This document shows, piece after piece, positions 1,828 to 53,081 of a stretch of 64,000 nt of DNA (position 1 is its first letter; every line of letters begins with the position of its first letter). The notes below the pieces were generated by a model. It made no database searches and was not told the DNA's origin. It saw only the letters and a program-made list of their open reading frames with translations. Source of the stretch: Siphonobacter curvatus (lineage in GTDB: Bacteria > Bacteroidota > Bacteroidia > Cytophagales > Spirosomataceae); the NCBI RefSeq assembly GCF_002943425.1, contig NZ_PTRA01000001.1, positions 2,418,001 to 2,482,000 of the forward strand, read 5' to 3'. The position numbers and the translations under genes are program-made.

Positions 1828-1985
1828 GTTTAGAGTTTAGGGTTTTGCGTTGGGTGATTGATCAATCATTTTGTTCTGACATTACGTAGATAACTACTAC
1901 TGGAACACTTGTGGATAGCATGAGAAAGCTTTATCTCCACTAACCATAACTCAAAACCCTAAACTCAAAACTACCCAACCCTACG
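1828..1985. repeat. Heptad inverted-repeat locus A (menB / lipoprotein spacer)
   Basis: The G/T-rich left arm at 1829-1856 reads as consecutive 7-nt units (TTTAGAG and TTTAGGG first). The A/C-rich right arm at 1950-1984 reads as units such as CTCAAAA and CCCTAAA. A 15-nt core, GAGTTTAGGGTTTTG at 1833-1847, is matched exactly by its reverse complement at 1952-1966. The loop is about 100 nt. The left arm begins five bases after the menB stop, and the right arm ends four bases before the next ATG. Confidence 0.85.
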
Positions 1986-1988
1986 CTT

Positions 1989-2402
1989 ATGAACTATCTG
2001 AAATCCATTTTGCTGTTTACGGCTCTTGTGACTCTTTTGGGCAGTTGTCGGGATACCAGTGATCCACAGGACCGGGATGAGCTGAGTTATCTGCATCAAA
2101 CCTGGAAACACTCCGATGAGGAAGATACCGAAGGCCGCCTGATTTATCGTAACGCCGATTACAAATTCCCGACTACCAAAGACCGTCAGACGTTTACTTT
2201 TACTGAGAATGACGTACAAGTTTCAGTCATTAAAAACAACAAGCTTACCCAGTACAAAGGCAGCTATACGGTAGTAATGAATGGTAATTCCGTGAAAGAA
2301 CTGACCATTAACTATACGGAAGCGGGTCAGCGGATCCCTACGGTATTACGTTACGAAGTACTGATTCTCGCCAAGGATGCCCTCATTTTGAAGTCCCTGT
2401 AA
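1989..2402 (+). CDS. Small secreted lipoprotein of unknown function
   Basis: A 137-residue protein starting with a lipoprotein signal: positive start, hydrophobic ILLFTALVTLL, then lipobox LGSC with Cys20 as the expected lipidation site. The mature part is a short beta-rich domain (for example TFTFTENDVQVSVIKNN, QYKGSYTVV, EVLILAKDALILKSL) that resembles lipocalin-like or 'lipid A palmitoyl-type' small barrels only in general pattern. I recognise no specific family. The charged linker after the Cys is short. It would sit in the inner leaflet of the outer membrane or face the periplasm. Its start codon lies four bases after the right arm of heptad locus A. Confidence 0.8.
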   Translation: MNYLKSILLFTALVTLLGSCRDTSDPQDRDELSYLHQTWKHSDEEDTEGRLIYRNADYKFPTTKDRQTFTFTENDVQVSVIKNNKLTQYKGSYTVVMNGNSVKELTINYTEAGQRIPTVLRYEVLILAKDALILKSL

Positions 2403-2454
2403 CGAGCCCTGGCCTTGCCGCTTGTACTGGTTTATTCCCCCAATTGTAGAATTC

Positions 2455-2868
2455 ATGAATTTTTGGCTCGTCAAATCCGAACCTTTTAAATATTCCTGGA
2501 ATGATTTCGTTAAAGAAAAGCGAGGCGTCTGGGATGGTGTACGAAACTTTCAGGCTCGTAATAACCTGAAGGCGATGGCAGTCGGAGATTTGGTGTTATT
2601 TTATCACTCAAACGAAGGAAAAGAAATTGTAGGCATTGCTAAAGTGGTACGTGAGGCGTATCCCGACCCCACGACGGAGGATGACCGCTGGGTAGTCGTG
2701 GATCTGGAGCCCGTCGAGAAGCTTCCCAAAAGCGTCACACTGGAAACGATAAAAGCCGATACCCGCCTACAAAACATTGCCCTGATCCGTCAGTCACGCT
2801 TATCGGTTTCCCCCGTCCGGCCCGAAGAATTTGATATCATCGTTGGATTAGGCCATGAACATGCGTAG
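2455..2868 (+). CDS. EVE domain protein
   Basis: A 137-residue protein that is one EVE domain, a PUA-like fold known to bind modified bases. Seen in the sequence: the opening FWLVKSEP (3-10), VWDGVRNFQARN (25-36), GDLVLFYHSN (44-53) and IVGIAKVV. These match the canonical EVE layout of a Trp-hydrophobic-Lys-Ser-Glu-Pro start, a WDG-VRN-QARN loop and a FYHS motif. I chose ATG 2455; an in-frame TTG at 2422 would add eleven residues that are not part of the domain. The last codons overlap the start of the next gene (ATG 2855), which suggests translational coupling. The natural ligand is not evident from this neighbourhood; stand-alone EVE proteins are common in bacteria. Confidence 0.9.
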   Translation: MNFWLVKSEPFKYSWNDFVKEKRGVWDGVRNFQARNNLKAMAVGDLVLFYHSNEGKEIVGIAKVVREAYPDPTTEDDRWVVVDLEPVEKLPKSVTLETIKADTRLQNIALIRQSRLSVSPVRPEEFDIIVGLGHEHA

Positions 2869-4414
2869 CCCCCTTTTTGTCCTTGCCCTCGTATTGGGCT
2901 CTCTTACTCTATTCGCTCAGCAGAAGCGACTTGAAATTCCTATTCCTTCGTCTACCGCCAATATTTTCACGATCCCCGTGGGTCAGGAAGGCGTGATGCT
3001 GCTCACCCAGACGGGCCGAAACTCGTATCACATCGATCGCTTTGATACCAATCTGGATCGTAGCTGGTCAGTAGATGGCACCATTACGGATGGCCTGGAA
3101 TACGTCACGTATTCGTATGACGGAAAAAATGTGTATCTACTTTTTAGCCGGAATAAGAGTAATGTGTACGAAATCATTAAAGTATACGTTGGTCCGGGTT
3201 TCACCGAAAAATTTGAAATTCATTCGGTGGATAAAATGGAAATTTCCCAGTTCAAAGCTTTCCACGATGGCATATACATTGCCGGGGTGGTTCGGGAACA
3301 ACCCATTTTATCGTACACGAATCTGCAAACGCGTCAGAATCGTCTGCTGAATGCCTCCTTCAAAGGTCAGGCCGAAGTACAGACCATTGACGTAGATTCG
3401 GTAACCAACCGCGTGAACGTTACTTACGCCGTTCGGAAAAATCGGGAGTACTCGATTGTAGTAAAATCCTTCGACGATGCAGGAAAACAGCTTTCGGAAA
3501 TTGTGGTAACCCCCGATGAAGATTACGCCCTGCTCGATGGCCGCCTGAGTCCGCTGGCCGATGGTACGAATCTGATGATCGGTACCTATGGTTTCCGGAA
3601 TATGCAGTCGCAGACGAAGGGCCGGATGGTACAGGGAATTTACATCTGTAAGGTGACCGACAACGAAATCCTGCCCCTGAAGTACTACAGCTTCACGGAT
3701 TTCAAAAACTTCTTTTCCTACCTGAGTCCCCGCGACCAGGAGCGTCGCGAGCGTCAGGTTCAACGCAAGAAGGAAAAAGGCAGCGATTTAAAACTGAACA
3801 CACAGTTACTGTTGCACGATTTGATTCAGAAGGATGGTCAGTTGATTCTAGTCGCTGAAGCCTTCCAGGCTACCTTCCGTAATAATGGAAATCCTTGGGG
3901 TTACGGTGGTGGCCCCTGGGGCGGTCCGATGGGTGGTTTTTATCCCGGTTGGGGTTGGGGGATGTACAGCCTGAACCCCTTCTACTTCGGCAATCGTGGT
4001 TTCTATAATAACGGTTCCCAGATGTTTGATGGCTGGCAGTATACACACGCCGTAGTGGCAGGTATCAACCAGCAGGGAGCGTTAGTCTGGGACAACAGCT
4101 TTGAAATTGACAAGGTAAAAACCCTGTCCTTGAAGGAAAAAGTGAAAGTAAATCTCCAGAATGATCAGGTAACGCTGGTGTATAGTGACAAAGGCAGCCT
4201 CCGCTCGAAAAGTATCAAAGGCGGTATGGTGCTTGAAGACGGTACAGCTCAGGCGATTGCCACGAATAACAACGGAGACCGGGTTCGCCGCAACTCGACC
4301 GATAATCTGGATTACTGGTACGATAACTACTTCCTGGCCTGGGGTTTCCAACGCATCACCAATGATGCCGAAGGCCGTCGGAACGTGTTTTATCTCAATA
4401 AAGTAGCATATTAA
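2855..4414 (+). CDS. Secreted protein of unknown function with a Gly/Trp-rich insertion
   Basis: A 519-residue protein with a clear Sec signal peptide (MNMRSPLFVLALVLGSLTLFA, cleavage near residue 21). The mature protein is beta-rich with WD/propeller-like spacing of aromatic strands but no family I can name. Around residues 345-392 there is an insertion rich in Gly, Trp, Pro, Tyr and Asn (for example NPWGYGGGPWGGPMGGF), probably a flexible or self-associating segment. A basic stretch, RRERQVQRKKEKG, lies just before it. The gene overlaps the EVE gene by 14 bp. An alternative start at 2861 (MRSPLF) would not alter the signal peptide. A strong terminator follows at 4436. Confidence 0.8.
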   Translation: MNMRSPLFVLALVLGSLTLFAQQKRLEIPIPSSTANIFTIPVGQEGVMLLTQTGRNSYHIDRFDTNLDRSWSVDGTITDGLEYVTYSYDGKNVYLLFSRNKSNVYEIIKVYVGPGFTEKFEIHSVDKMEISQFKAFHDGIYIAGVVREQPILSYTNLQTRQNRLLNASFKGQAEVQTIDVDSVTNRVNVTYAVRKNREYSIVVKSFDDAGKQLSEIVVTPDEDYALLDGRLSPLADGTNLMIGTYGFRNMQSQTKGRMVQGIYICKVTDNEILPLKYYSFTDFKNFFSYLSPRDQERRERQVQRKKEKGSDLKLNTQLLLHDLIQKDGQLILVAEAFQATFRNNGNPWGYGGGPWGGPMGGFYPGWGWGMYSLNPFYFGNRGFYNNGSQMFDGWQYTHAVVAGINQQGALVWDNSFEIDKVKTLSLKEKVKVNLQNDQVTLVYSDKGSLRSKSIKGGMVLEDGTAQAIATNNNGDRVRRNSTDNLDYWYDNYFLAWGFQRITNDAEGRRNVFYLNKVAY

Positions 4415-4435
4415 TTTTGCCCGAAATACGATGCG

Positions 4436-4467
4436 AAAGGACTGATGATTTACCTCATCAGTCCTTT
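4436..4467 (+). terminator. Rho-independent terminator after the secreted protein
   Basis: A perfect 13-bp stem (AAAGGACTGATGA, six-base loop TTTACC, exact complement) ends in a run of T. It lies 22 bp after the stop codon at 4414. Confidence 0.9.
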
Positions 4468-4636
4468 TCCTGTCTTTGAACCATCAACTTCTTTCAGGAA
4501 TAGTAGCCCTATTTTAGTCCTTAGAAGTAATACGTTTATCGATTGAACAAATCGCACGTTCGGTGACTTGTACGAAGGTGTGATTAAACCTGAAAGACTG
4601 AAGACAAGCAAAAGACTTGTCTAAACAATACCTTTT

Positions 4637-5518
4637 ATGAAATTACTGACTCCCACCCCCTGGTCTGATTACGAACTGATTGACTGCGGAGGTTTCGAGA
4701 AATTAGAACGCTTTGGTGCCTACGTACTGGCCCGCCCCGAACCGCAAGCCATCTGGGATAAAACCCTGTCGGATGCCGAATGGGAAAGCAAAGCCCAAGC
4801 CTACTTTAAACGCGAAAAAGGCAACTCCGAACGCGGCGAATGGCTGACGAAGCAGGGGATGCCCGACCGCTGGACGGGTACCTACCCCCTGGGTTCGCAG
4901 AAGCTTACCTACAAACTTGCTCTGTCTTCCTTTAAGCACGTGGGTCTGTTTCCGGAGCAGGCTGCTAACTGGGAATTCATCTACCAGAAAACCAAGGCCC
5001 TCGGCGTAGAGAAGCCCAAAGTCCTCAACCTGTTTGCCTACACGGGTGTGGCCTCGCTGGCAGCTCGGGCCGCCGGAGCTGACGTTACGCACGTGGATTC
5101 GGTAAAACAGGTCATCAGCTGGTCGCGGGAAAACATGGAACTTAGTAATCTGGAGAACATCCGCTGGATGGTGGAAGACGCCATGAAGTTCGTGAAGCGG
5201 GAAGTTCGTCGGGGCAATACCTATCACGGCATCATTCTGGATCCGCCCGCCTACGGTCGCGGTCCCGACGGCGAGAAGTGGGTACTGGAAGAACAGATCA
5301 ACGAGTTACTCAAACTTTGTAAGCAATTACTGAACCCACAACAGCACTTTTTCCTGATCAATCTCTACTCCCTGAGTTTTTCGGCCCTGATTGCCGAAAG
5401 TCTGATTCTGCGGATTTTCGAGAAAACCGAAAATCCTGAGTTTGGGGAACTGTACCTACCCGATTCATTCCATAAAAAGTTACCGCTGGGCATCTTTTAC
5501 CGCTTTGCTACGGTTTAA
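4637..5518 (+). CDS. Class I SAM-dependent methyltransferase, RlmI-like (rRNA cytosine C5 type)
   Basis: A 293-residue Rossmann-fold methyltransferase of the COG1092/RlmI group. The AdoMet-binding motif I is VLNLFAYTGVASLAA (129-143), the acidic post-I residue is in THVDSVK (151-157), and motif IV is DPPAYGRGP (202-210). This DPPxYG form is typical of the RlmI/RlmK-like proteins and not of amino-MTases with NPPY. It lacks the N-terminal PUA domain of E. coli RlmI, so the substrate cannot be assumed. It stands alone between a terminator at 4436 and a long hairpin at 5534. A 7-bp inverted repeat (AGACAAG/CTTGTCT, 4602-4622) lies in its leader. Confidence 0.85.
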   Translation: MKLLTPTPWSDYELIDCGGFEKLERFGAYVLARPEPQAIWDKTLSDAEWESKAQAYFKREKGNSERGEWLTKQGMPDRWTGTYPLGSQKLTYKLALSSFKHVGLFPEQAANWEFIYQKTKALGVEKPKVLNLFAYTGVASLAARAAGADVTHVDSVKQVISWSRENMELSNLENIRWMVEDAMKFVKREVRRGNTYHGIILDPPAYGRGPDGEKWVLEEQINELLKLCKQLLNPQQHFFLINLYSLSFSALIAESLILRIFEKTENPEFGELYLPDSFHKKLPLGIFYRFATV

Positions 5519-5533
5519 TGGCCGAGGTTTTTT

Positions 5534-5583
5534 GACTCCTGGCCCTTACCTTTCGCTTTGTTAGCGGAAACGGGCCCGGAGCC
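5534..5583. other. Long hairpin between methyltransferase and response regulator
   Basis: GACTCCTGGCCC (5534-5545) pairs with GGGCCCGGAGCC (5572-5583) at ten of twelve positions, plus G-T pairs. An inner TTTCGCT/AGCGGAAA stem lies at 5551-5570. There is no T-run after it, so it is either a weak terminator of the methyltransferase or a structured leader of the response regulator, whose ATG is 19 bases downstream. Confidence 0.55.
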
Positions 5584-5601
5584 TCCCAAGATAGACGACT
5601 T

Positions 5602-6285
5602 ATGAAACTATTGATCATCGAAGACGAGCCGAAAACCGTCCAGTCCATCAGACAGGGCCTGGAAGAAAATGGTTTTGAAGTAGATATTGCTTACGATGGT
5701 CTGATTGGTAAACATCTGGCCAAGCGAAATCCCTACGATCTGATCGTTTCGGATATTATCATGCCGGGCCTGAATGGCGTGGAACTGACCCGTGAGCTTC
5801 GGAGTGAAGGTGTAGAAACGCCCGTTTTGCTCCTGACGGCGTTGGGTGGTATTGACGAAAAGCTGATGGGCTTCGACGCCGGTGCCGACGATTACCTGGT
5901 TAAACCCTTTGAATTTGCTGAACTGCTGGCCCGTATCCGCGTACTGACCCGCCGCTGGAACGGTTCCATGCCCATCGCTTCCAATATTCTGCGGTATACG
6001 GATCTGGAAATGAACCTGGATTCGAAAACGGTAATCCGCGGCGAGAAGAAAATTGAACTTACCGCCCGTGAATTCGCCCTGCTGGAATTTATGTTACGGA
6101 ATCAGGGAAAAGTGCTTTCGAAAGCCGAAATTGCGGAGAAAGTGTGGGATGTCAATTTCGACACGGGAACGAACGTGATTGAAGTGTATATCAACCTGTT
6201 ACGCAAAAAGGTGGACAAAGATTTCACGACCCGTCTCATCCATACCCAATACGGGATGGGCTATGTACTAAAGGTGGAAGATTAA
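5602..6285 (+). CDS. OmpR/PhoB-family response regulator
   Basis: 227 residues. The N-terminal receiver domain (1-118) has the acidic pocket E7-D8, the phosphoacceptor Asp51 (in VSDIIMPG), the switch Thr79 and Lys101 in LVKPFEF. A Trans_reg_C winged helix follows at about 130-225, with the recognition helix in NVIEVYINLLRKKVD and the hairpin QYGMGYVLK. All receiver residues needed for phosphorylation are present. The gene is 54 bp upstream of a histidine kinase on the same strand, so the two form one two-component system. Hybrid regulators of this class in Bacteroidota resemble RprY/CusR. The target genes are not evident here. Confidence 0.95.
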   Translation: MKLLIIEDEPKTVQSIRQGLEENGFEVDIAYDGLIGKHLAKRNPYDLIVSDIIMPGLNGVELTRELRSEGVETPVLLLTALGGIDEKLMGFDAGADDYLVKPFEFAELLARIRVLTRRWNGSMPIASNILRYTDLEMNLDSKTVIRGEKKIELTAREFALLEFMLRNQGKVLSKAEIAEKVWDVNFDTGTNVIEVYINLLRKKVDKDFTTRLIHTQYGMGYVLKVED

Positions 6286-6339
6286 CAGATGGTCCTGCTA
6301 CCTTTCTCCTCTTTCTCAATACTGATTCATTAGGTTTCC

Positions 6340-7716
6340 ATGCAAATTCGTACTCGTCTAACCATTCAATTCACCCTCTTGGTTTCGGTGATTGTTTTGC
6401 TGGCGTTTGCGGCCATTTACTACTTCCGGGAGTACTCTTTGCAGGAACAGTTCTATAAACGTCTCCGTCAGAAAGCCCTGAGTACGGTGGAGTTGCTGGT
6501 CAACCAGAATGAAGTAAATTCCGAGATTCTCAAACTCATCGACCAGTCGAATTATGACCTGTTGTACAAGGAAAATGTCATTCTGTACACCTATCGAAAT
6601 GACATCTACCATGCCAACAATGATACCATTCGCTTCGATCTGGACCGGAATATCCTGAACCGCATCCGATTAAATAAGGAGCTGCGAATTGATCAGGGCG
6701 AGTACAAACTCTACGGACTCTATTACACTAACGATGGCGAACGCATGGTCAGCGTAGCCGGAGCCGCCGACGTAGCCGATCAGGTGAGTATGCGTTCGCT
6801 CCTGCGGATTATGCTGTATGCTTACGTTGCCTGTATTCTGCTGGTAGCAGTGGTAGGCTGGTTTTTTGCGGGAAGGGCCCTTGTACCCATATCGGATGTT
6901 ATCAACGAAGTGCAGCGAATTTATCCGCAGAACCTGAGTAGGCGGGTGAACACGCAAAACGAAAAGGACGAAATCGGTCGGCTCACTTTCACGTTCAATG
7001 CCCTACTCGACCGGGTGGAACAGGCGTTCCGGCTGCAGAATATGTTCATTTCGAATGTCTCGCACGAGCTTAAGAATCCGCTTACCAAGATAATCTCTCA
7101 GTTAGAAGTAGTGCTGCTGCGGGAACGTAGTACGGAAGAATACCGCCAAACGGCTTCTTCCGTCTTGGCGGATGCCCGCGACCTGAGTCAGCTCTCCAAT
7201 ACCCTACTCGAACTGGCTAAAGTTTCCGATCAAAATCAACCCTTCCTGACGGCTCCCGTACGCATTGATGAAGTATTGTGGGATGCCCGTGATCTGCTTC
7301 GTTCGACCCATCAGTCGTATACCATCAAGGTAGAGTTTCCGGTTGACATTGAAGAAGATTCCGTTTTAACCTTAAACGGAAATGCCTACTTGTTGAAGGT
7401 AGCAGCGATCAATTTGATGGAGAACGGCTGTAAGTTTTCTATCGATCATACGGTTTTTGTGAAAGTACTGCCTAGTTCGACGCAACTTGAGCTGGTCTTC
7501 AGTAACCGTTCCGACATTGCTCAGGAAGAATTGAGTCTAATTTTTCAGCCGTTTTACCGTAGTCAGAAATCCGTACGTATTTCGGGGTACGGCATCGGTT
7601 TATCATTGGTAGACCGAATCATAAAATTGCATAATGGCACGATTGAGGTAGATTCGCAGGAAGGAAACGTGACCTTTCGTATCGTCATTCCTCAGCCTAA
7701 ATCAAATTTTCAGTAG
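6340..7716 (+). CDS. Sensor histidine kinase paired with the preceding regulator
   Basis: 458 residues. Transmembrane helices lie at about 8-28 and 157-178, framing a periplasmic sensor of about 125 residues. A HAMP domain (about 180-230) begins GRALVPISDV. The HisKA box SHELKNPL carries phospho-His242, the N-box is NLMENGCKFS (358-367) and the G2 box is GYGIGLSLV (416-424). An oddity: the G1 box, normally D-x-G-x-G, reads SNRSDIAQEE, without the Asp-Gly pair, so ATP binding may be altered. Otherwise it is a full-length kinase. A terminator-like hairpin follows at 7828. Confidence 0.95.
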   Translation: MQIRTRLTIQFTLLVSVIVLLAFAAIYYFREYSLQEQFYKRLRQKALSTVELLVNQNEVNSEILKLIDQSNYDLLYKENVILYTYRNDIYHANNDTIRFDLDRNILNRIRLNKELRIDQGEYKLYGLYYTNDGERMVSVAGAADVADQVSMRSLLRIMLYAYVACILLVAVVGWFFAGRALVPISDVINEVQRIYPQNLSRRVNTQNEKDEIGRLTFTFNALLDRVEQAFRLQNMFISNVSHELKNPLTKIISQLEVVLLRERSTEEYRQTASSVLADARDLSQLSNTLLELAKVSDQNQPFLTAPVRIDEVLWDARDLLRSTHQSYTIKVEFPVDIEEDSVLTLNGNAYLLKVAAINLMENGCKFSIDHTVFVKVLPSSTQLELVFSNRSDIAQEELSLIFQPFYRSQKSVRISGYGIGLSLVDRIIKLHNGTIEVDSQEGNVTFRIVIPQPKSNFQ

Positions 7717-7827
7717 ATTTTAAGGATTGCTTCACGTGTGCTTAAGTATTGGCCCGTTCATTTGCCCTTGCAAAGCAAACCAGTTTTCTCATCCGGTTAG
7801 ATGGTTTGTAATGGGGGAAATGCAGAC

Positions 7828-7865
7828 ACGCTGGGGCCCTTACTGTCGGCTCCAGCGTAGTCTTT
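7828..7865 (+). terminator. Terminator after the two-component operon
   Basis: ACGCTGGGGCC (7828-7838) pairs with GGCTCCAGCGT (7848-7858) with one mismatch. It is followed two bases later by TCTTTTT. Confidence 0.75.
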
Positions 7866-7890
7866 TTGATCAGTAACCTCTTTTACCCTC

Positions 7891-8136
7891 ATGAAGTATA
7901 TGCCTTACCTGGTCGCTACCATAGCCGGGTTTGCGTTAGGCGGCATGGTTCGTTGGTACTGCTACCCCTGGACAGACCTCGTATCCTCTCGCGAAATGAT
8001 GCTGGTTACGGTACTCATCGGTGTCCCTTCCGGATTCGTCTTACAAATCATCGCCGTTCGGTATCCTCCCCAGAGTCGTCTGCTTGATATACGAGTTTTC
8101 GTATGCCTGGGAATTGTTTGTTCCTTGATCTGGTAA
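7891..8136 (+). CDS. Small membrane protein of unknown function
   Basis: 81 residues with three hydrophobic segments: about 4-21 (MPYLVATIAGFALGGMV), 38-55 (MMLVTVLIGVPSGFVLQI) and 68-81 (VFVCLGIVCSLIW). Short charged turns separate them. There is no cysteine-containing lipobox and no known motif. Its position just after a terminator, and before a gene-poor stretch, leaves no operon context. The hydrophobicity pattern and codon use favour a real gene over a chance frame, but the length keeps confidence moderate. Confidence 0.55.
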   Translation: MKYMPYLVATIAGFALGGMVRWYCYPWTDLVSSREMMLVTVLIGVPSGFVLQIIAVRYPPQSRLLDIRVFVCLGIVCSLIW

Positions 8137-8166
8137 ACGGTGTACAAAACTACGGCTCTATACTAA

Positions 8167-8319
8167 ACGCGTCTACCTTTTCGTAAATCCCTGCTTTTCT
8201 TCCTAATTGAGGCCTTTGGCAATGTGCGGAAGGCCTTCGTAGCCCCTTCGCTGGTTGCAGGATTCCTGTCTGTTTACCTCTTCTTTATACTGGAGTACAC
8301 CAAAAAAATCAACGCTTGA
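8167..8319 (+). pseudogene. Possible C-terminal fragment of a lost membrane protein
   Basis: Fifty sense codons lie between an upstream TAA and the TGA at 8317-8319, with no ATG. The frame encodes LLFFLIEAFGNVRKAF, then a hydrophobic helix (SLVAGFLSVYLFFILEY) and a Lys-rich end. A basic-flanked transmembrane helix without a start is what the tail of a decayed polytopic protein looks like. Chance cannot be excluded. Confidence 0.25.
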
Positions 8320-8464
8320 CGTAAATCAAAACTTAACGTATATTCGAGTCATAAGCAGCTAGTTGTCCGCCCATTGAAATTTATGCCCGTACTGTTATCT
8401 TTAGGTTGGCAGATATACAATTAACCCAGGAACCTATTTCGTACACCTTTACTTAACCGCCCTT

Positions 8465-8569: not shown

Positions 8570-8713
8570 TTTTGCAGCATACTTTTCCTCCGTGAGCCAA
8601 CCTTCATTTCTCAGGGATTTCAATGGATTGCAGCGATAAAAATTACTGCTTGAATCACTGATTTCGCCTGAAGATGAGGGCGATGCTTTACCAACTATTA
8701 ACCCAGTCCGATC

Positions 8714-19115: not shown

Positions 19116-19146
19116 GTTGTGTTAGTTTTTTGACGTTGGCGGAGGA

Positions 19147-19220
19147 GAGTTTTGAGTTCTGAGTTTAGGGTTCTGAGTTAAACTCGTAACACTAAACGCC
19201 AAACCCTAAACGCTGTTCTC
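19147..19220. repeat. Heptad inverted-repeat locus B (rpmI / rplT spacer)
   Basis: The left arm, 19150-19184, is in units such as TTCTGAG and TTTAGGG. The right arm, 19190-19217, is in units such as CACTAAA and CCCTAAA. The core GTTTAGGGTT (19163-19172) is matched exactly by AACCCTAAAC (19202-19211). It lies inside a ribosomal-protein operon. Confidence 0.8.
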
Positions 19221-19278
19221 GCTTAAAAAGCCATGAGTCGGGTTAAACAAGGAAACCTGTAATTGGTCCGAAGACGAA

Positions 19279-20260: not shown

Positions 20261-20340
20261 TTTTAAGTTTTCAGTGATTAATGTTTTCAGCAGAATGGAA
20301 GTAGACTGAAAACTCCTGATCCTGAACTGAAAACTGAGAA
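20261..20340. repeat. Heptad inverted-repeat locus C (thrS / infC spacer)
   Basis: The left arm 20261-20290 contains TTTTAAG and TTTTCAG units, one of them nine bases long. The right arm 20306-20340 is five exact 7-nt registers, including CTGAAAA twice. AGTTTTCAGT (20266-20275) is complementary to ACTGAAAACT at both 20305-20314 and 20326-20335. It is followed on the thrS side by an imperfect GAAGCCGT/ACGGCTTC hairpin. Confidence 0.75.
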
Positions 20341-22411: not shown

Positions 22412-22462
22412 ACAGTTTCCAGTATACCGTTTGCTGTTTTCAGTAAACTGTGTCCAGCAAAC
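22412..22462. repeat. Heptad repeat locus D (upstream of thrS)
   Basis: A run of 7-nt registers from 22416 (TTTCCAG) to 22457 includes TTTGCTG and TTTTCAG. It offers two alternative stems: GTTTGCTG (22429-22436) with CAGCAAAC (22455-22462), and ACAGTTT (22412-22418) with AAACTGT (22445-22451). It is shorter and less regular than the other loci. Confidence 0.5.
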
Positions 22463-22552: not shown

Positions 22553-23689
22553 CTAAATGGAATCGGCGGCGACGGTTCCCGTTTTGTCGGGTACAGTCAG
22601 GGCTGGTCGGTAGCGTTCGTCCTGCCGCAGCTCCGGGTAATTGCTGAGCTGTTTTCGTCGCGTCCGCCAGTACCCGCCTACCGCCTTTCGGTTACCCGGA
22701 TTCTGCTGGGCTTCGGCTAGGTAATAATCCATGGCTTTGTCGTCGTTGCCTACTAATTCAAGACATTGAGCCATCAGAAAGTTCAATCCGGGGTAATTAG
22801 GATTAACCTTCTCGACTACCTGCAGGTGCTTAAGGGCGGCGGCCGCTTTTTCAACGTTGAACAAAAGAGACGCTACGTATAAGTTTGCCCCCGGATTATT
22901 CGGCTCCGTTTTAATGGCTTTCATAAACTCGGTGTACGAACTGTCCACTTGCGAAGTCTGCAGGAACGTCAGCCCCCGACGGTAATGCAAATCGGCATCG
23001 TTCGGATAAAAATGGAGCCCTTCCTGAGCAAATGCCAAAGCTTTGGGATACTCCTTTTTCTGGTAATAAATCCGAGATAGTTGCTGATACGCATCCAGAA
23101 AACCGGGCATAAGCGTACGGCTTCGCAGAAGCAATACCAGGGCTGAGGTGGTATCTCCTAATTTCGCGGCGATCATGCCACGATAGAAATACGCTTCGCC
23201 GTGGTAAGGGTTGATTTGCAGCGTACGGGCCAAGTACTGACGGGCTTTTCCCAACTGATACTTTTGCTGGTACAGATCAGCCAGCAGGACGAAAAGTTCG
23301 GGGGTACGTTCATTAAGAATTTCGGCCCGTTGAGCCGCGTACAGAGCCTCATCAATCTGCCGGCGTTGCCGCAAAATCTTCGCTTTGGTAACGTAATAAC
23401 GACCCGTATTTCGTTTGAGTTCGATGGCCCGGTTGATGTCTTCCAGGGCGGCATCCAGCTCCGAACGCTGGAGGTAAATTTCCGCCCGTTTCTGGTAGTT
23501 GTCTGGAGCATCCGGGTACTGATGAATAACACGGGTCAGCAAATCCAGAGCTTTGGGCGTAGAAAAGCCTTCGTTCATATTCGGCAGCGGCGGAATACGT
23601 CCGCCCGCCTGCTCTTCCGAAGAACAGGCCATCATTCCCCCAAGTAAACCTAGAAACACAAAAACCAGAACCGAACGAATCATTCCCAA
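22553..23689 (-). CDS. TPR-repeat lipoprotein
   Basis: 378 residues with a lipoprotein signal (FVFLGLLGGMMAC, Cys near residue 22), a short Gly/Pro linker, then about eight tetratricopeptide repeats covering residues 50-345. TPR signature spacing is seen in ALEDINRAIELKRNTGRYYVTKA, AREYLARTLQINPYHGEAYFYRG-type and AFAQEGLHFYPNDADLHYRRG segments. The C-terminal 40 residues are basic and then polar. It is expected in the periplasm or at the inner face of the outer membrane as a scaffold. It is divergent in position from thrS only by a long gap, and a -7 box lies just upstream at 23705. Confidence 0.88.
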   Translation of the reverse strand: MGMIRSVLVFVFLGLLGGMMACSSEEQAGGRIPPLPNMNEGFSTPKALDLLTRVIHQYPDAPDNYQKRAEIYLQRSELDAALEDINRAIELKRNTGRYYVTKAKILRQRRQIDEALYAAQRAEILNERTPELFVLLADLYQQKYQLGKARQYLARTLQINPYHGEAYFYRGMIAAKLGDTTSALVLLLRSRTLMPGFLDAYQQLSRIYYQKKEYPKALAFAQEGLHFYPNDADLHYRRGLTFLQTSQVDSSYTEFMKAIKTEPNNPGANLYVASLLFNVEKAAAALKHLQVVEKVNPNYPGLNFLMAQCLELVGNDDKAMDYYLAEAQQNPGNRKAVGGYWRTRRKQLSNYPELRQDERYRPALTVPDKTGTVAADSI

Positions 23690-29637: not shown

Positions 29638-29701
29638 GCTGAGGTTTCAGTTTTGACGGTCGCATTTGCAATCCATCAAACCTGAAACCTCAAACCCCTT
29701 A
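29638..29701. repeat. Heptad inverted-repeat locus E
   Basis: GAGGTTTCAG (29641-29650) is matched exactly by CTGAAACCTC (29682-29691). The right arm from 29674 to 29701 is in 7-nt registers such as CCTGAAA and CCTCAAA. It lies between convergent genes and immediately beside REP-like copy 1. Confidence 0.75.
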
Positions 29702-30408: not shown

Positions 30409-30413
30409 TAGAG

Positions 30414-30552
30414 TTTTCAGTTTATTGTTTTGAGCGGCTGACGCCGCGGTTTAGAGTTTTGGATTTAGCGTTAGTGGCGATACTTGCTGTGAATACCTCA
30501 GCTAACCAGTAACACAACTCAAAACACTAAACCCAAAACCCTCTACTCACCT
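30414..30552. repeat. Heptad inverted-repeat locus F (dapA / Dabb spacer)
   Basis: Two G/T-rich heptad blocks, 30414-30434 (TTTTCAG and TTTTGAG units) and 30450-30477 (TTTAGAG and TTTTGGA units), flank a GCGGC-TGAC-GCCGC hairpin (30434-30447). The A/C-rich right arm 30518-30552 includes CACTAAA and CCCAAAA. The array starts six bases from the Dabb start codon and touches the dapA stop codon. Confidence 0.8.
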
Positions 30553-41697: not shown

Positions 41698-41814
41698 GAG
41701 GTTTGATTAGGTTTGAAGTTTGAAAAGCGTTCCATGGGTTCAATACCATTAGCCCCGTATGCAATGCGGGGAACATGCATCGACAGGAACCTGCCAACTT
41801 TAGACTAATCAAAC
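41698..41814. repeat. Inverted-repeat locus G (holds a REP-like element)
   Basis: GTTTGATTAG (41701-41710) is matched exactly by CTAATCAAAC (41805-41814). The left arm consists of GGTTTGA-type units of 7 to 10 nt. REP-like copy 2 (41753-41771) lies in the loop. Confidence 0.7.
41738..41771. repeat. REP-like hairpin, copy 2
   Basis: GGTTCAATACCATTAG precedes CCCCGTAT-GCA-ATGCGGGG (41753-41771), the same hairpin and near-identical flank as at 29588-29619, with one G-T pair in the stem. The first hairpin of copy 1 is decayed here; only GGTTCAA remains. Confidence 0.75.
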
Positions 41815-41856
41815 CCGATCATACGTCAAACCACATACCAAAGAAACTGGCGTAAA

Positions 41857-41890
41857 AAAAGACGCTATTCCCGAAGGAACAGCGTCTTTT
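41857..41890 (-). terminator. Terminator after the M14 pair
   Basis: AAAAGACGCT (41857-41866) pairs with AGCGTCTTTT (41881-41890), and TTCC-CGAA-GGAA continues inside. The minus strand ends in a T-run, fitting the M14 gene that ends at 42028. Confidence 0.85.
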
Positions 41891-41898
41891 GTAAAGTA

Positions 41899-42006
41899 TC
41901 AGGTTTGAGAAAGGTTTGATTCGTTTAAAGTTTGAGTCGGGGAAGGTTCACACTCCATGAATCGGGAATTTAAACCTCAAACCCTTTCAAACTACTCAAA
42001 CCTGAA
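41899..42006. repeat. Inverted-repeat locus H (after the M14 gene)
   Basis: TCAGGTTTGAG (41899-41909) is matched exactly by CTCAAACCTGA (41995-42005). Further GTTTGA/TCAAAC units continue on both arms with spacings of 7 to 11 nt. It fills the space between the terminator and the stop codon of the gene ending at 42028. Confidence 0.75.
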
Positions 42007-42027
42007 ACTTCCCTCAAACCATCCCTA

Positions 42028-43866: not shown

Positions 43867-44056
43867 GTTTCTAGTTTGCGTACGTTTTTGGTTTAAATGG
43901 GTTTCTAGTTTGATACGGTTTGAAGGCTTATTCAAGCGTAGATCATACCACACTTCCTTTTACTTCATCCTACCTTTTCAAACATGAACAAACCCTTTTT
44001 CAAACTACCTGAAACCAACTTAAACCTTCTCAAACGCTAGTCAAACCGCCGCAAAC
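43867..44056. repeat. Long inverted-repeat locus I (between the two M14 genes)
   Basis: The left arm, 43867-43927, is built of GTTT-headed units alternating 7 and 10 nt (GTTTCTA, then GTTTGCGTAC). The right arm, 43979-44056, has AAAC-headed units of about 10-12 nt. The best match is 43891-43913 with 44000-44025. It lies 46 bp beyond the start of the downstream gene and nine bases from the stop of the upstream gene. Confidence 0.75.
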
Positions 44057-48119: not shown

Positions 48120-48266
48120 GCTTTCGCTGAACCATTTTACACCCCGTTTTATGAAAGAGCACTGGGGGATGAGCTTGCTTTCAAATCTATTCTTGATTTG
48201 CAGGACTGTGGGTTTTTAATCATTTTCGCGGCTGATTCAGTCTAACCGGACTGAATACATGGTGCC

Positions 48267-50003
48267 ATGTCAAGACCCACTATCTACCTTCTTCTCTCTG
48301 GAATTCTTATTCTTGCGGTCGGTTTACGACTGTATACGCTCGGCGATTACAGTCTGTTTTTCGACGAAAAATCTACCCTGCTGGTTTCGCAGGGCGTACC
48401 GCTGGAGGGGGCCAATCAACCAGAATTACACCAGAAATATTTCACACCCAAGGATTTCTGGCGGCCCAAGCACATGGCCGACTATTACGAAGCCATCAAT
48501 CGGAGTGACATCGGAAATTCTCCCGCGTACTACGTGCTGTTTCATGCCTGGGTGGCTTTGTTTGGCATGAGTGATTTTACGCTCCGACTGCTTTCGGTCA
48601 TTTTCAGCGTTCTGACGGTAGCTCTGGTCTTCCGGTTCACGCAAAAACACCTCAAGAGTGATCGAATGGCCCTGTTTGTGGCTTTATTAATGGCCATCGA
48701 GCCGTTTTTTGTTGCTTACAGTCATCAGGCCCGTAACTATTCGATGACGTTCTTCTTTACGCTGCTGGCTACGGACGTTTTTCTGGATATTGTTCGCTCC
48801 ACCAGACCTGTTCACTGGACCAGATTTCTCTGGTACGGATTGCTGGCCTGGCTGGTATGGTTCTGTCACTTCCTGGGCATTGTCGTGATTGGTATTCACG
48901 GCTTGTACGTATTGCTCTACGTACGGAACTTGCGAATCTGGATGGGCTTAGCTCTTTCTCTGATTTTTCCGGTACTGGGTATGGTCTGGTGGATGTCACC
49001 CGGCAAAGGCGGCGAATACACGCTACATACGCTGAAGTATCAGGGAGAACTTTACAAAAAAATTGCGGATACGCAGACGGATGGCATGATTACGCCGGCG
49101 ACTCTTCCGAACATCTGGAAGAAACTGGCTCCCGTATTAGCTGATCAGTTTTGGGTGAGCAACGGACTGGCCAGCCGCCTGAGTGGTAAACGAAATCTGA
49201 TTATCCTGTCGATTACCACGGTACTTTCCCTGTTTGCCATTTGGCAGTACCAACGCAAGCAACAGTTTCGCTGGTCACTGATTGCGATTGTATTAACCAT
49301 CGTATCCCTCTTTTTATACACGACTCAGCCCTTTGCCTTCCTGGCTTTCCAGAGTTCGATGATTTTGGCGGGTGTTCTGCTGGTATACGCGTTCAAAAAC
49401 CGGGCGGTGGCCGAACGTCCCTTACTGGTCTTTTTCGTACTGCTTACCTTTTTACCGACCGCTTTTCTGGTAGTAATGTCCCTAAAAAACGGACATACCT
49501 TTGGCATTACACAACGCTACGGGGGTTTCTCCTTTCCGTATGCGTTGATTCTGATTGCCATTGCTTTACGTGAAAGTAGACGCCTGCCGCTCTGGAGTAA
49601 AGCGGTTGTGGGTGTGGCCTGCGTCGCTCAGATGGGCTGGCTGGTTCAGGTTTTACAGGAAATTTACGAAGACCGATCACCCAAGTACACCTACCGTTCG
49701 GAAGCCCGGATTGCAAATCCGTACTGGGCGGCGGCTCAGGAGATCAAAAAGCTGTACGTCCCTGGTGACACTATTCTGTACCCCAGCGGTGTGAAAGATG
49801 TTTATGGATCAGCGGATGAGTACACAGCAGACATTAAAATCTCGATTCTGGACGCTCAGCTGACCAATGTCTACTTACCGAAAGATGCCTCGTATTGGCA
49901 ACGAATTGACTCCCTTGAGCAGGATAAGTTGTATCTTTGGCAAAAATCAACGGGTCAAAAACGTCTGATTTTCGATTTTGAACGTTCTAAATATCGGTAC
50001 TAA
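48267..50003 (+). CDS. GT39-type polytopic glycosyltransferase
   Basis: 578 residues. The N-terminal region has a first helix, then LGDYSLFFDEKSTLL, the acidic loop typical of GT-C enzymes (an Asp-Glu pair after the first helix, as in PMT/ArnT). About eleven further transmembrane helices follow up to residue 440, then a soluble periplasmic C-terminal domain of about 130 residues. Enzymes of this class use polyprenyl-phosphate sugars to glycosylate lipids, proteins or glycans at the outer face of the inner membrane. It opens a run of glycan genes on the same strand and lies 99 bp before the transketolase half. The acceptor is unknown. Confidence 0.85.
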   Translation: MSRPTIYLLLSGILILAVGLRLYTLGDYSLFFDEKSTLLVSQGVPLEGANQPELHQKYFTPKDFWRPKHMADYYEAINRSDIGNSPAYYVLFHAWVALFGMSDFTLRLLSVIFSVLTVALVFRFTQKHLKSDRMALFVALLMAIEPFFVAYSHQARNYSMTFFFTLLATDVFLDIVRSTRPVHWTRFLWYGLLAWLVWFCHFLGIVVIGIHGLYVLLYVRNLRIWMGLALSLIFPVLGMVWWMSPGKGGEYTLHTLKYQGELYKKIADTQTDGMITPATLPNIWKKLAPVLADQFWVSNGLASRLSGKRNLIILSITTVLSLFAIWQYQRKQQFRWSLIAIVLTIVSLFLYTTQPFAFLAFQSSMILAGVLLVYAFKNRAVAERPLLVFFVLLTFLPTAFLVVMSLKNGHTFGITQRYGGFSFPYALILIAIALRESRRLPLWSKAVVGVACVAQMGWLVQVLQEIYEDRSPKYTYRSEARIANPYWAAAQEIKKLYVPGDTILYPSGVKDVYGSADEYTADIKISILDAQLTNVYLPKDASYWQRIDSLEQDKLYLWQKSTGQKRLIFDFERSKYRY

Positions 50004-50102
50004 GGTTGCTTCGCACGAAAAGCCTTCCGGTACCGACCTCAGCATAAGCCCTCTACGGGCCTGACTACCATTAACCATTTTCAACTGCCAGCCTTACTTT
50101 CC

Positions 50103-50921
50103 ATGTTGGAAACTGAATTGAAACAATTAGCCGGGGAACTGCGACTAAAGACGCTCGAGCTCTACAAAATGGCCAATGCGGGTCATATTGGCTGTTCGAT
50201 GAGTTGCCTTGATTTGATGATCGGATCGCTCGTCAAACAAAAGCGGGATTCGGAAGTCTTCATCCTATCCAAAGGACACGCCGCAGCGGCTTTGTATACG
50301 TGCCTGAATCATCTCGGTGAAATTTCGGACGACACCCTGCAGACGTTCTATAAAAATGATACAACGCTTCCGGCTCACCCCGCTCCCAATAAACATACGG
50401 GCATTCCCTTTGCTACGGGTTCCCTAGGCCACGGACTGCCCATTGCCACGGGTATTGCCAAAGCCAATCAGCTCAGCGGTGAGGACGCTCTGACGTTCGT
50501 TTTGATGTCGGACGGTGAAACCAATGAAGGGACAACTTGGGAAGCTTTACACTTTGCCGTAAACAATCAGCTCGATCAGTTAGTAGTATTAATCGACCGG
50601 AATCGTTTGCAGGGATTTGGCCACACCCAGGATATTCTAGGTGATTCGGCGGACCCCCGCAAATACGAAGTGTTGGGAGCTGACGTCGTTGAGATCGATG
50701 GCCATGACATTGCGACGATCATTCAAACGATTGAACAGCTACGCACCCAACGCAACGGCAAGCCGAAAGTAGTCGTCGCCAATACCATTAAAGGCAAAGG
50801 CATCTCGTACATGGAAAACCGCATGGAGTGGCACTACCTACCCATGTCAGCGGACCTGTACGCCCAGGCCCAAAAAGACGTCATCGAAGCGTATCAACTA
50901 TCTGTAGAACACGTTCTTTAG
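50103..50921 (+). CDS. Transketolase, N-terminal (ThDP pyrophosphate-binding) subunit
   Basis: 272 residues, equivalent to the first half of transketolase. The cofactor motif is SDGETNEGTTWEALHFAVNN (136-155), the usual GDG-(x)-N with Ser for the first Gly. His residues of the substrate channel are seen in GHIGCSMS, SKGHAAAAL and GSLGHGLPIATG. The second half is encoded at 53084, with a 2-kb gene in between, so the enzyme must work as an alpha2-beta2 type complex. Split transketolases of this kind occur in sugar-nucleotide or polysaccharide clusters as well as in central metabolism; the neighbours here favour glycan synthesis. Its stop codon starts the left arm of heptad locus J. Confidence 0.92.
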   Translation: MLETELKQLAGELRLKTLELYKMANAGHIGCSMSCLDLMIGSLVKQKRDSEVFILSKGHAAAALYTCLNHLGEISDDTLQTFYKNDTTLPAHPAPNKHTGIPFATGSLGHGLPIATGIAKANQLSGEDALTFVLMSDGETNEGTTWEALHFAVNNQLDQLVVLIDRNRLQGFGHTQDILGDSADPRKYEVLGADVVEIDGHDIATIIQTIEQLRTQRNGKPKVVVANTIKGKGISYMENRMEWHYLPMSADLYAQAQKDVIEAYQLSVEHVL

Positions 50922-50992
50922 TTTACAGTTGTCGGTTTGCAGTGTTCAGTTGGGTTTCTTCCTGAAAACTGAAAACTGAAAATTGTAAACTA
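50919..50992. repeat. Heptad inverted-repeat locus J, stem of 31 positions
   Basis: The left arm 50919-50949 and right arm 50962-50992 pair at 26 of 31 positions (two of the other five are G-U pairs, three G-A). The loop is 12 nt. The right arm starts with the heptad CTGAAAA three times in succession. The left arm begins at the first base of the preceding stop codon, and the right arm ends nine bases before ATG 51002. Confidence 0.9.
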
Positions 50993-51001
50993 CCCTATCT
51001 A

Positions 51002-52987
51002 ATGACCGAATTATTACGTGACGATATTTTGCAGTTGCGAGGGCCCATCTTCGTGTATGGAGCCAGTGGGTTTATCGGAGCTGCCCTGTTTGAAAAGATT
51101 TTTGCCGTTCGCAAGGACGTGTATACCCTCACCCACGATGCCCGCAAAGCCTGGCGACTGAAATTACTCGACGTACCGGCGGAGAATGTCATTCACTGTG
51201 ACATTGTTTCGCCCACGTCCGTAAAGGGGGTTTTTGATGAACTGCAACCCAAAACCGTCTTCAATCTGGCGGCGTACGGGGCGTACTCCAAGCAGCAGAA
51301 CGTCATTCTTACCTACGAAACCAACGTCATCGGTACGGTAAACATTCTGGAAAACTGTACGCCGGAGACCGTGTATATTCACGCAGGCAGCAGTTCTGAA
51401 TACGGATTTAACTGTACAGCTCCCGCCGAAACGGATCCGGTTGAACCGAACAGTCACTATGCGGTCTCGAAGGTTTCTTCGGCGTATCTGATTCAGTTTT
51501 ACCACCAGGTACAACGCAAAAAAGCGGTCAACTTACGGCTGTATTCCATTTACGGCGATTGGGAAGAACCCGATCGGCTAATTCCACGTCTGGTGGAGAA
51601 CGTTCGAAAAGGACAACTTCCTCCGCTGGTATCCCCCGAAATTTCCCGCGATTTTGTGTACGTGGATGACTGTATTGCCGCCTTTGTGAAAGCGGCTCTG
51701 GCCGACTTCAACGTCATTGGTGGTAATTCCTATAACATTGCCTCGGGGGTGAAAACCACCATCGCCGATCTCGTCAAAACCGTACAGGAACATTTCGGGA
51801 TCAACCAGGAAGCGGTCTACGGCACCATGCAAAACCGCAAGTGGGATTTGGCCGAGTGGTATGGCGATCCTTCAGCCGCCCGCCGGGATCTGAACTGGGA
51901 AGCTCAGTATACGCTGGCTCAAGGTTTACGACGCACCTATGATTGGCAGGAGCGACATCAGTACGAAGAACGCATCATTCCGGCCTTCCAGAATCCGTAT
52001 CTGAATCCGGTTATTTCGGCCATCATCGCCTGTTACAAGGATGCCCAGGCGATGCCTTACATGTACGAACGCCTCGTCAAGACGTTCAATGCGATGAAGG
52101 TGCGGTACGAAATCATTTTCGTGAACGACCGCTCGCCCGATAATACGGAACAAGTGCTGGAAGAGTTGTGTGCTAAAGATCCTAACGTGATTGGCATCAC
52201 ACACTCGCGGAATTTTGGTAGTCAATCGGCGTTCCTCAGTGGGATGGAAATCTCAACGGGTGATGCTGTTGTCCTGATGGATGGTGACTTACAGGATCCA
52301 CCGGAGATTATTCCCGACTTCTACGAAAAGTGGCAAGAAGGCTACGAAGTGGTCTACGGAACGCGGGTGCAGCGGGAAATGAAACCGCACATGCACGTGT
52401 TCTACAAACTCTTTTACCGAATTTTCCAAAGTCTGAGTTACATCCCCATCCCCCGCGATGCCGGTGATTTCTCCATGATTGACCGGAAAGTGGTAAAAGA
52501 ACTGGTCGCTCTCCCCGAAACCGAGCAATTCCTGCGGGGATTACGGGCCTGGGTGGGCTTCAAGCAAACGGGAGTTCCCTATGTACGGCCTGAGCGGATG
52601 TTTGGCGTATCGACCAACAACTGGCGGAAAAACATTGGCTGGGCGAAAAAGGCCATTTTCTCCTTCAGTTTCGTACCGCTGGAACTGATGAGCTACGCAG
52701 GTTTCACCCTCACGGGACTTTCCGTACTGGGCATTTTCTATCAGATTCTGGCCAAGTATTTCATTGCACCGGATACCCCACAGGGCTTTACTACGGTTAT
52801 TATCCTGATTACGCTGTTCGGCGGTTTAACCTTGATGGGGCTGTCGTTCCTAGGCGAGTACATCAGTAAGATTTTTGAAGAAACGAAAAAACGGCCCAAG
52901 TTCATCCGAACGATCGTCCGTAAAGGCGGAAAGAAATACCAGACGTCCGAAGAGATCAAAACGCTGGTTACGCAACAGAAAAAGTAG
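51002..52987 (+). CDS. Fusion of an NAD-dependent sugar epimerase/dehydratase and a GT2 glycosyltransferase
   Basis: 661 residues, two complete enzymes in one chain. The N-terminal half (1-320) is an extended SDR sugar-nucleotide enzyme with GASGFIG at 20-26, the catalytic Tyr153-x3-Lys157 in SHYAVSKVSS, and a Ser-Ser-Ser-Glu-Tyr motif at 130-134. The C-terminal half (about 335-640) is a GT2 of the DPM1/GtrB group: ISAIIACYKD, the metal site DGDLQDPPE (427-435), and two transmembrane helices (about 563-587 and 597-620). A single protein could thus make an activated sugar and transfer it to polyprenyl phosphate. It is located between the two halves of a transketolase. Confidence 0.93.
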   Translation: MTELLRDDILQLRGPIFVYGASGFIGAALFEKIFAVRKDVYTLTHDARKAWRLKLLDVPAENVIHCDIVSPTSVKGVFDELQPKTVFNLAAYGAYSKQQNVILTYETNVIGTVNILENCTPETVYIHAGSSSEYGFNCTAPAETDPVEPNSHYAVSKVSSAYLIQFYHQVQRKKAVNLRLYSIYGDWEEPDRLIPRLVENVRKGQLPPLVSPEISRDFVYVDDCIAAFVKAALADFNVIGGNSYNIASGVKTTIADLVKTVQEHFGINQEAVYGTMQNRKWDLAEWYGDPSAARRDLNWEAQYTLAQGLRRTYDWQERHQYEERIIPAFQNPYLNPVISAIIACYKDAQAMPYMYERLVKTFNAMKVRYEIIFVNDRSPDNTEQVLEELCAKDPNVIGITHSRNFGSQSAFLSGMEISTGDAVVLMDGDLQDPPEIIPDFYEKWQEGYEVVYGTRVQREMKPHMHVFYKLFYRIFQSLSYIPIPRDAGDFSMIDRKVVKELVALPETEQFLRGLRAWVGFKQTGVPYVRPERMFGVSTNNWRKNIGWAKKAIFSFSFVPLELMSYAGFTLTGLSVLGIFYQILAKYFIAPDTPQGFTTVIILITLFGGLTLMGLSFLGEYISKIFEETKKRPKFIRTIVRKGGKKYQTSEEIKTLVTQQKK

Positions 52988-52992
52988 TAGCG

Positions 52993-53081
52993 TTATGAGT
53001 TTAGTGTTTGGAGTTTTGGGTTTAGAATGACGTCACCAACTCTAAACCCAAAACCTTAAACTCTAAACCCAAAACACATTC
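52993..53081. repeat. Heptad inverted-repeat locus K
   Basis: Left arm 52993-53027 is in five 7-nt registers (TTTAGTG, TTTTGGG). Right arm 53040-53081 is in six (CTCTAAA and CCCAAAA, each twice). GTTTTGGGTTTAGA (53013-53026) is matched exactly by 53041-53054. The 14-nt loop contains the palindrome TGACGTCA (53028-53035). The right arm ends two bases before ATG 53084. Confidence 0.9.

Follow-up and report, generated by a model that had tools for sequence, protein, structure and literature searches.

Heptameric intergenic repeats are known from Xanthomonas and Nostoc, with units of the form GGGNATC or GGGGA(C/T)T (Rehm et al. 2015, PMC4692102). In the part of that paper drawn on here, two Xanthomonas genomes hold 70 and 75 inverted pairs in convergent orientation, the heptamers lie mostly within 50 bp after a stop codon (on the coding strand) or before a start codon (on the non-coding strand), few fall between divergent genes, sites are kept while their length changes, and the repeats are generally unconnected with mobile elements and of unknown function. 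The heptamer TAACTGA forms direct repeats in Beggiatoaceae, Cyanobacteria and five Bacteroidetes, mostly beside start codons in the best-studied genome, where one indirect repeat is recorded (MacGregor 2015, PMC4679880), and in the trnL introns of Nostoc two classes of degenerate 7-nucleotide (nt) motifs, Class I and Class II, build the P6b stem, with repeated shifts between the classes and 14-nt insertions reported for one group (PMC4476775; this paper and the preceding one are likewise cited from part of their text). Here we describe paired arrays of degenerate heptads, folded as hairpins between genes, in a 64,000-nt stretch of Siphonobacter curvatus (assembly GCF_002943425.1, contig NZ_PTRA01000001.1, positions 2,418,001 to 2,482,000); this whole stretch, hereafter the window, is part of contig C1 of a 6.39-Mb genome (G000; compared genomes also carry G numbers).

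We read the elements as the form that the heptameric repeats known between genes of Xanthomonas, Nostoc and Beggiatoaceae take in Bacteroidota. Set against the Xanthomonas repeats as covered by the part cited, they share a tandem 7-nt unit in spacers, convergent pairs near stop and start codons and rarity in divergent spacers, but the Xanthomonas units can form G-quadruplexes and reach up to 26 copies, whereas a quadruplex motif occurs in 0 of the 48 two-arm elements that form our anatomy set (28 from G000, 8 from G004, 5 each from G001 and G002, 2 from G003), and the elements here avoid identical adjacent units and switch dialect (defined below). TAACTGA is likewise a 7-nt unit, a GTT word (GTTATCA) reversed in orientation, with a patchy occurrence across phyla, but it is one fixed heptamer in direct repeats, the hairpin design is not seen in the portion of that report used, and two adjacent copies of it occur in 0 of our 48 elements. 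The Nostoc P6b stem is paralleled at a single place, site B below, where degenerate heptads form the variable stem of a structured RNA; in the sections cited it is described for the trnL group I intron, whereas here the heptads are dispersed over spacers genome-wide. An earlier note on this DNA had held that no bacterial element of this design was described, and that statement gives way to the similar heptamer repeats in these three papers (again, as far as the cited parts go). Our literature search, judged on titles and the opening of abstracts, found no description of paired degenerate heptads in Bacteroidota, which is no proof of absence, and what is new here are the dialects, the avoidance of identical neighbours, the whole-element replacement between close species and the heptad stem at rpmI-rplT.

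Architecture and setting of the heptad hairpins

Evaluating spacers of the window genome without a preset motif, by counting trinucleotides that occur three times at a fixed lag in 459 spacers, we found 278 at lag 7 versus 25 to 42 at lags 5, 6 and 8 to 12, with GTT/AAC heading the lag-7 trinucleotides (142); GTT/AAC is also the leading period-7 trinucleotide in G001, G002 and G004. The pattern (GTTTNNN)3GTTT matched 82 times in the genome and its backward control once. Scanning 864 kb of the genome's own sequence for arrays revealed 104 arrays in 70 clusters, of which 30 had a G/T arm followed by an A/C arm, 2 were variants of that order, 38 were single arrays and none had the opposite order; nine clusters lay inside called genes, all of them single arrays. 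Gene calls came from a small in-house finder, which overlooks short genes such as rpmI and thus makes some spacers too long, and the array counts demand an exact GTT, so that the 97–100% GTT seen in the anatomy set is partly by construction. A perfect run of many GTTTTCC heptads at G000:C1:1561298-1561385 is unlike the degenerate arrays elsewhere.

To describe the internal order of the 48 elements, we tabulated the heptad in its natural phase, GTTNNNN, and found position 6 to be G in 46%, C in 35% and T in 15%, agreeing between the arms in 111 of 147 heptad pairs within an element and at about 0.35 between elements. Positions 4–7 agreed in register at 365 of 588 places versus 342.1 (standard deviation, sd, 8.5) after the heptads of one arm were reordered (z=2.7), a heptad-order matching that is modest in sum and significant in no single element. 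The arms of an element thus share the dialect of one heptad (G-dialect and C-dialect below), and base-by-base pairing is only slightly better than that. Identical adjacent heptads were rare, at 7 of 235 versus 21.7 (sd 2.9) on within-arm reordering (0 of 1000 shuffles as low), and identity at distance two was raised, at 23 of 139 versus 13.9 expected (1 of 1000 shuffles reaches 23). By genome, identical neighbours numbered 3 of 131 in G000 versus 9.6 expected and 4 of 47 in G004 versus 9.1, with G001 (0 of 22 versus 1.7) and G002 (0 of 26 versus 1.5) not significant and G003 too small to assess. Outside the genus, in small samples comprising the first places listed in each genome, avoidance was borderline in G054 (2 of 46 versus 3.8), leaned that way in G051 only when heptads were reordered over the whole element, and gave no signal in G052, G222 and G091.

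Loops ranged from 1 to 206 nt, many of them 10–34 nt, with a second group at 50–111 nt. Promoters in the long loops were considered and rejected, as TTG-N17-23-TAnnTTTG, which we take to be the promoter motif, occurred 0 times in 20 loops of at least 40 nt (one strand each); attC-like sites were set aside too, having reverse polarity and a poor fit to consecutive heptads when weighed against core-site motifs alone, with no search made.

Position and polarity were strongly ordered. Among the 48 elements, 43 lie between co-directional genes, 4 between convergent and 1 between divergent genes, and these 43 tandem elements begin a median of 5 nt from the upstream stop codon (38 of 43 at no more than 13 nt) and end 13 nt from the downstream start, so that an element often brackets its spacer from just past one gene to just before the next. 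Folding of the sense-strand RNA gave a mean z of −5.83, with 38 of the 43 below −2, and TTTT followed the 3' arm within 10 nt in 0 of the 43. An inverted-repeat survey of 779 spacers in five genus members, with a score cut-off of 14, yielded 160 repeats scoring at least 14 versus 0.3 in shuffles. The G/T-first repeats among them (left arm >70% G/T, n=43) had 65.6% identity at lag 7 and fell in 35 of 529 tandem, 8 of 131 convergent and 0 of 119 divergent spacers, whereas the A/C-first repeats (left arm >70% A/C, n=35) had loops of 3–33 nt (32 of them ≤10), lay between convergent genes in 23 of 35 cases and ended in TTTT in 26 of 35 cases versus 0 of 43 for the G/T-first kind. The A/C-first repeats look like ordinary terminators, and the two kinds of hairpin are mirror images.

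Within the window, the earlier note had listed eleven spacers in which a G/T-rich arm precedes an A/C-rich arm, a polarity that we also see; both arms keep 7-nt register at five of them (1828, 19147, 30414, 50919 and 52993), 22412 has one arm, and the GTTT/AAAC spacings across 41698, 41899 and 43867 are 7, 9, 10, 11 or 12. A sixth locus that the note had placed in its heptad group, 20261, drops out, with two GTTT 16 apart and two AAAC 21 apart, and the TTTNNNG/CNNNAAA units it proposed are real heptads at the five loci that read naturally one base over, as GTTNNNN. Its claim that the two arms of a locus match survives as a common dialect, to which base-by-base register adds little. The pairs stand up to the shuffling that the note had proposed: the 46 window spacers hold 5 paired sites and 14 arrays, and 300 dinucleotide shuffles of them produced no arm pairs (mean 0.000, maximum 0) and 0.25 arrays on average (maximum 2). 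Nor are the loci copies of a fixed sequence, as the note had also argued, since a query of 1828-2060 finds, beyond itself, five matches of 24–31 bases in its own genome. The features are as follows, with complementarity as given by the inverted-repeat finder.

1825..1974: site A, G-dialect heptad hairpin, arms 1825-1851 and 1948-1974 with a 96-nt loop, in the spacer 1824-1988; heptad-register arms 1828-1855/1944-1971; complementarity 89%
19149..19211, transcribed from the minus strand: site B, heptad hairpin in the rpmI-rplT spacer; heptad-register arms 19149-19183/19177-19211; complementarity 73% over 19154-19220
19230..19244, minus strand: 5' half of the rpmI-rplT RNA core (AACCCGACTCATGGC)
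19125..19142, minus strand: 3' half of the rpmI-rplT RNA core (CCGCCAACGTCAAAAAAC), directly upstream of rplT
20261..20336: site C, non-heptadic GTTTTCAG/CTGAAAAC repeats in the infC-thrS gap
22415..22442, plus strand: site D (22412), lone heptad arm upstream of thrS
29640..29692: site E (29638), 20-nt inverted repeat in a convergent spacer, complementarity 90%; AAAC at 7,7 on the right side, GTTT 6 apart on the left
30410..30542: site F, mosaic heptad hairpin with a C-dialect outer heptad and G-dialect inside; heptad-register arms 30413-30433/30512-30539; complementarity 84%
41698..42016: sites G (41698 and 41899), GTTT/AAAC units at spacings of 7–11, partial inverted repeats
43867..44056: site H, GTTT spaced 7,10,7,10,7,10, then AAAC spaced 10–12
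50919..50992: site I, C-dialect heptad hairpin with a 12-nt loop; heptad-register arms 50921-50955/50963-50990; complementarity 84%
52992..53075: site J, G-dialect heptad hairpin with a 14-nt loop, C-dialect in the closest relative; heptad-register arms 52992-53026/53034-53075; complementarity 83%

Site H represents a second spacing class, and its spacer is just 45 nt in G002 and 50 nt in G001. The site C spacer measures 161–163 nt in five other genus members. A GGCTGACGC core noticed in site F was near chance in the genome's own sequence (9 versus 6.6 expected), and ARAGORN found no tRNA in the window.

Turnover between species and the rpmI-rplT spacer

We evaluated change at orthologous sites against the closest relative used, G003 (93.5% identity to G000 over the window), and against further genus members sharing down to about 75% nucleotide identity. 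Restricting the G000/G003 set to spacers whose flanks pass 88% identity and align to the edge left 228 orthologous spacers, 13 of them with paired arms in at least one genome. Identity fell below 65% in 4 of these 13 versus 5 of 205 array-free spacers (p=0.0008) and, among tandem spacers only, in 3 of 10 versus 0 of 136 (p=0.0002), and the remaining nine paired sites were 82–100% identical, site I at 80 of 80 nt. Two spacers, 1824-1988 and 52988-53083, differ over their whole length, although the coding sequence on either side aligns as far as the stop codon and resumes at the start codon; one species has a G-dialect element there and the other a C-dialect element (the site A spacer of G003 holds the C-dialect element). 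These comparisons show that some elements turn over by whole-element replacement. Nested dialects were seen by eye at 30409 and C1:493871, with an outer heptad or outer arm retained around an interior whose dialect differs.

Occupancy varied among sites as well. Elements stand at 50922 and 52988 in all four species compared, sometimes in a different dialect; 31433 and 53981 carry elements in G001 and G002, whereas G000 and G003 have short spacers there; the site F spacer is short in relatives (35 nt in G002 and in G001, 11 nt in G004); and orthologues of site D have both arms in G001, G002 and G005 and none in G004. At 53981 G001 and G002 have loop letters in common and differ in the third heptad, the two arms having changed together. 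Over eight sites and 24 elements, arms paired at 467 of 597 positions (0.782) within a species versus 1163 of 1670 (0.696) with the arm of another species, the comparisons being non-independent, and the orthologous spacers retain the design while their letters change wholesale; the lack of covariation that the earlier note had named as a refuting outcome is thus not what we see, and its rule of degenerate heptads with paired arms is supported. In aligned orthologues of G000 and G003, changes numbered 11 of 336 in GTT, 22 of 340 at positions 4–7 and 137 of 3567 in the rest of the spacer, and we claim no constraint on GTT (p 0.04–0.25 in a first G000/G003 set, 0.07–0.30 in a larger one). A seemingly strong constraint (25 of 757 versus 97 of 760) was discarded, as it counted pairs both ways and aligned G001/G002 replacements in phase.

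The spacer at site B added a structured RNA. We fetched thrS loci from 80 named Bacteroidota records and found rpmI and rplT adjacent in 71 loci (64 of the 80 records plus seven regions of the window and G genomes), with a common core start in 57 of 59 spacers of 60–130 nt, reading AACCNGRT...GGY...AAG, then a variable hairpin, then CRCC...TCAAAAA; the core is missing in at least one locus (L222, 39 nt). Of the 57 core spacers, 17 fold into eight common pairs, six of which have changes on both sides and so covary. Searched against Rfam, the window region gave no match up to E = 1, and five named relatives gave a tRNA plus three matches under their gathering scores. In G007, G030 and the Siphonobacter genomes the variable hairpin has period 7, its words being GTT words of the G- or C-dialect, GTTGGCA/GGTGGCA or ATTAAAA/GTTAAAA; at site B it is present in six of six genus members compared, in two dialects, with G007 and G030 using other vocabularies. 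These data show that at site B the heptad hairpin occupies the variable stem of a conserved RNA, between its core halves. An element can occupy the place of another hairpin in relatives, here and at the start of the 1828 spacer, which in G001, G002 and G005 holds different hairpins (by eye). From its place, and from a likeness to what we take to be the known L20 sites, the rpmI-rplT RNA may perhaps be an uncatalogued L20-binding leader. L20 leaders are named in Gammaproteobacteria, Firmicutes and Deltaproteobacteria in the part of PMC7247131 cited here.

Distribution in Bacteroidota

To survey the design more widely, we searched for a bracket pattern, GTTN4GTTN4GTT-N8-36-AACN4AACN4AAC, whose totals count overlapping registers and hence exceed the number of elements. 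It occurs in no more than 85 of the 296 Bacteroidota genomes and in 43 of the 140 genera, with a patchy distribution; 85 is an upper figure because in some genomes a backward control was equal or higher (for example G091 35/35, G096 8/8, G249 1/10). Across 59 genomes (the window genome plus 58 relatives), GTT-first brackets matched 1131 times in 28 genomes and AAC-first brackets 10 times, with backward controls at 31 (CAA-first) and 71 (TTG-first). In 80-kb samples of five further genomes, GTT/AAC leads period 7 in G009, G222 and G054, not in G261 and G133.

Other repeat classes appeared alongside. The 71 TTG-anchored period-7 brackets are spread over 15 genomes, including 21 in G027, and the anchor also appears in G034; a TTG anchor therefore exists at a lower level, and its polarity bias is weaker. 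G222 (L228-L231) holds a period-8 inverted family of GTGAAATG words, G/T-first and in co-directional spacers. In G004:C8 (L108-L127) three near-identical period-9 hairpins (TCTGTGNNN) stand at joined positions 345557, 365326 and 367494, with a variant at 23558; they lie near stop codons in convergent spacers and look copied, unlike the heptad elements. G009 (L226), from another genus of the family, carries a palindrome core, GGTTGGCTGACGC, dispersed in 40 matches and with GTT heptads on its flanks, resembling a repetitive extragenic palindrome (REP).

Origin of the elements and alternative readings

The reading that we favour, at a probability of roughly 0.42, is that these are dispersed inter-gene hairpins that arise and are exchanged at the DNA level and are tolerated where they are harmless in transcripts. 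Elements would arise or be exchanged, without a transposase, through hairpin-prone DNA events such as slippage in two-heptad steps, arm-to-arm template switching and recombination at shared GTT heptads, and would persist where a long hairpin does a transcript no harm. With its G/T arm leading and its A/C arm trailing, the hairpin lacks a terminal U-run, and RNA polymerase should therefore read through it, as operons require. Differing neighbour heptads would keep the array and the hairpin from slipping, and the effect on the host would be structural, a folded, translation-free joint between cistrons of mild or no benefit. This mechanism fits the polarity, the spacer class, the replacement and the RNA-stem case, and it partly explains the shared GTT and the differing neighbours.

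Several observations weigh against such a DNA-level origin. Slippage predicts identical neighbours and the opposite was found, so that slippage must go in 14-nt steps or perfect repeats must be lost afterwards, and it leaves unaccounted for a GTT anchor common to dialects and genera. Replaced elements have new loops as well, which calls for a donor or fresh synthesis, and no donor was found when site A alone was searched for in its own genome. The replacement test rests on 13 paired sites, which are few; one paired element sits in a divergent spacer; and the ten AAC-first brackets comprise nine in G007, at five places, and one in G002. Mismatches of the G-U kind (37) were not in excess of A-C (35), and there is thus no sign of pairing selected specifically in the mRNA strand.

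That last count bears equally on a possible but doubtful alternative, in which the elements are selected in mRNA as hairpins after stop codons that protect or process the upstream message or set operon expression ratios, like REP stabilisers. The position just after the stop, the tandem bias, the strong folding, the covariation of arms between species and the occupancy of sites B, I and J throughout the genus members compared, with D occupied in five of six, all speak for such a role, but besides lacking the wobble excess on the sense strand, the heptads do not evolve clearly more slowly than the rest of the spacer, convergent spacers hold elements too, and several elements are missing in relatives.

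It is unlikely that the elements are binding arrays for a sequence-specific DNA- or RNA-binding protein that recognises GTT at 7-nt intervals, the dialects corresponding to paralogues. The lead of GTT/AAC at period 7 in four genus members and three of the five further samples, the dialect common within an element and the extra spacings of 10 at 43867 would suit this, but aligned orthologues show at most a weak constraint on GTT, and related arrays have period 8 (G222) and 9 (G004); our search for a candidate protein was restricted to Y1. Equally unlikely, we consider, is a dedicated writer. This would be an enzyme, or a process linked to replication, that is widespread in Bacteroidota; starting at the two edges of a transcribed spacer and working outward, it would write non-identical heptads anchored on GTT in a single step, and it could overwrite an existing element with one of another dialect. 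These elements and the Xanthomonas, Nostoc and Beggiatoaceae repeats would then form one cross-phylum system. Head-to-head telomere arrays have the same polarity as the heptad elements.

Intergenic hairpins near gene ends are also formed by REP palindromes and bacterial interspersed mosaic elements (BIMEs) with their REP-associated tyrosine transposases (RAYTs), and sites filled in one species and short in another, the 13-mer core of G009 (some of whose 40 matches are two arms of one palindrome) and the near-identical 9-mer hairpins of G004 with their variant would suit a non-autonomous mobile element (REP/RAYT, miniature inverted-repeat transposable element or similar) spread by a transposase. 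We think this improbable, as loci of the window genome share a vocabulary rather than a sequence, site A has no second full copy there, and the Y1 transposase (PF01797), the one transposase family searched for, is present in many genomes without heptad elements but had no match in G000, G005 and G046, where the bracket pattern matches 64, 70 and 24 times; REP/RAYT was rejected on this last count. Intrinsic (Rho-independent) terminators are very improbable, for although the 1828 spacer opens with a hairpin in three relatives, with T-rich sequence after it in two, and the convergent element C1:119849 encloses a terminator-like hairpin (all by eye), the elements have the opposite polarity, lack the T-run of the A/C-first repeats and stand inside rpmI-rplT and other co-directional pairs.

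The elements provide a common grammar that joins three scattered reports: a 7-nt unit, with its G-rich side after stop codons and mirrored before the next gene. That grammar, including its rarity between divergent genes, now extends widely through a further phylum (up to 85 of 296 genomes sampled), and whole-element replacement makes the origin of such repeats directly testable. The rpmI-rplT spacer adds a conserved RNA, located upstream of rplT, in which heptad stems are tolerated or put to use. Should the elements fold tightly and still be read through, they would be natural insulating joints between cistrons.

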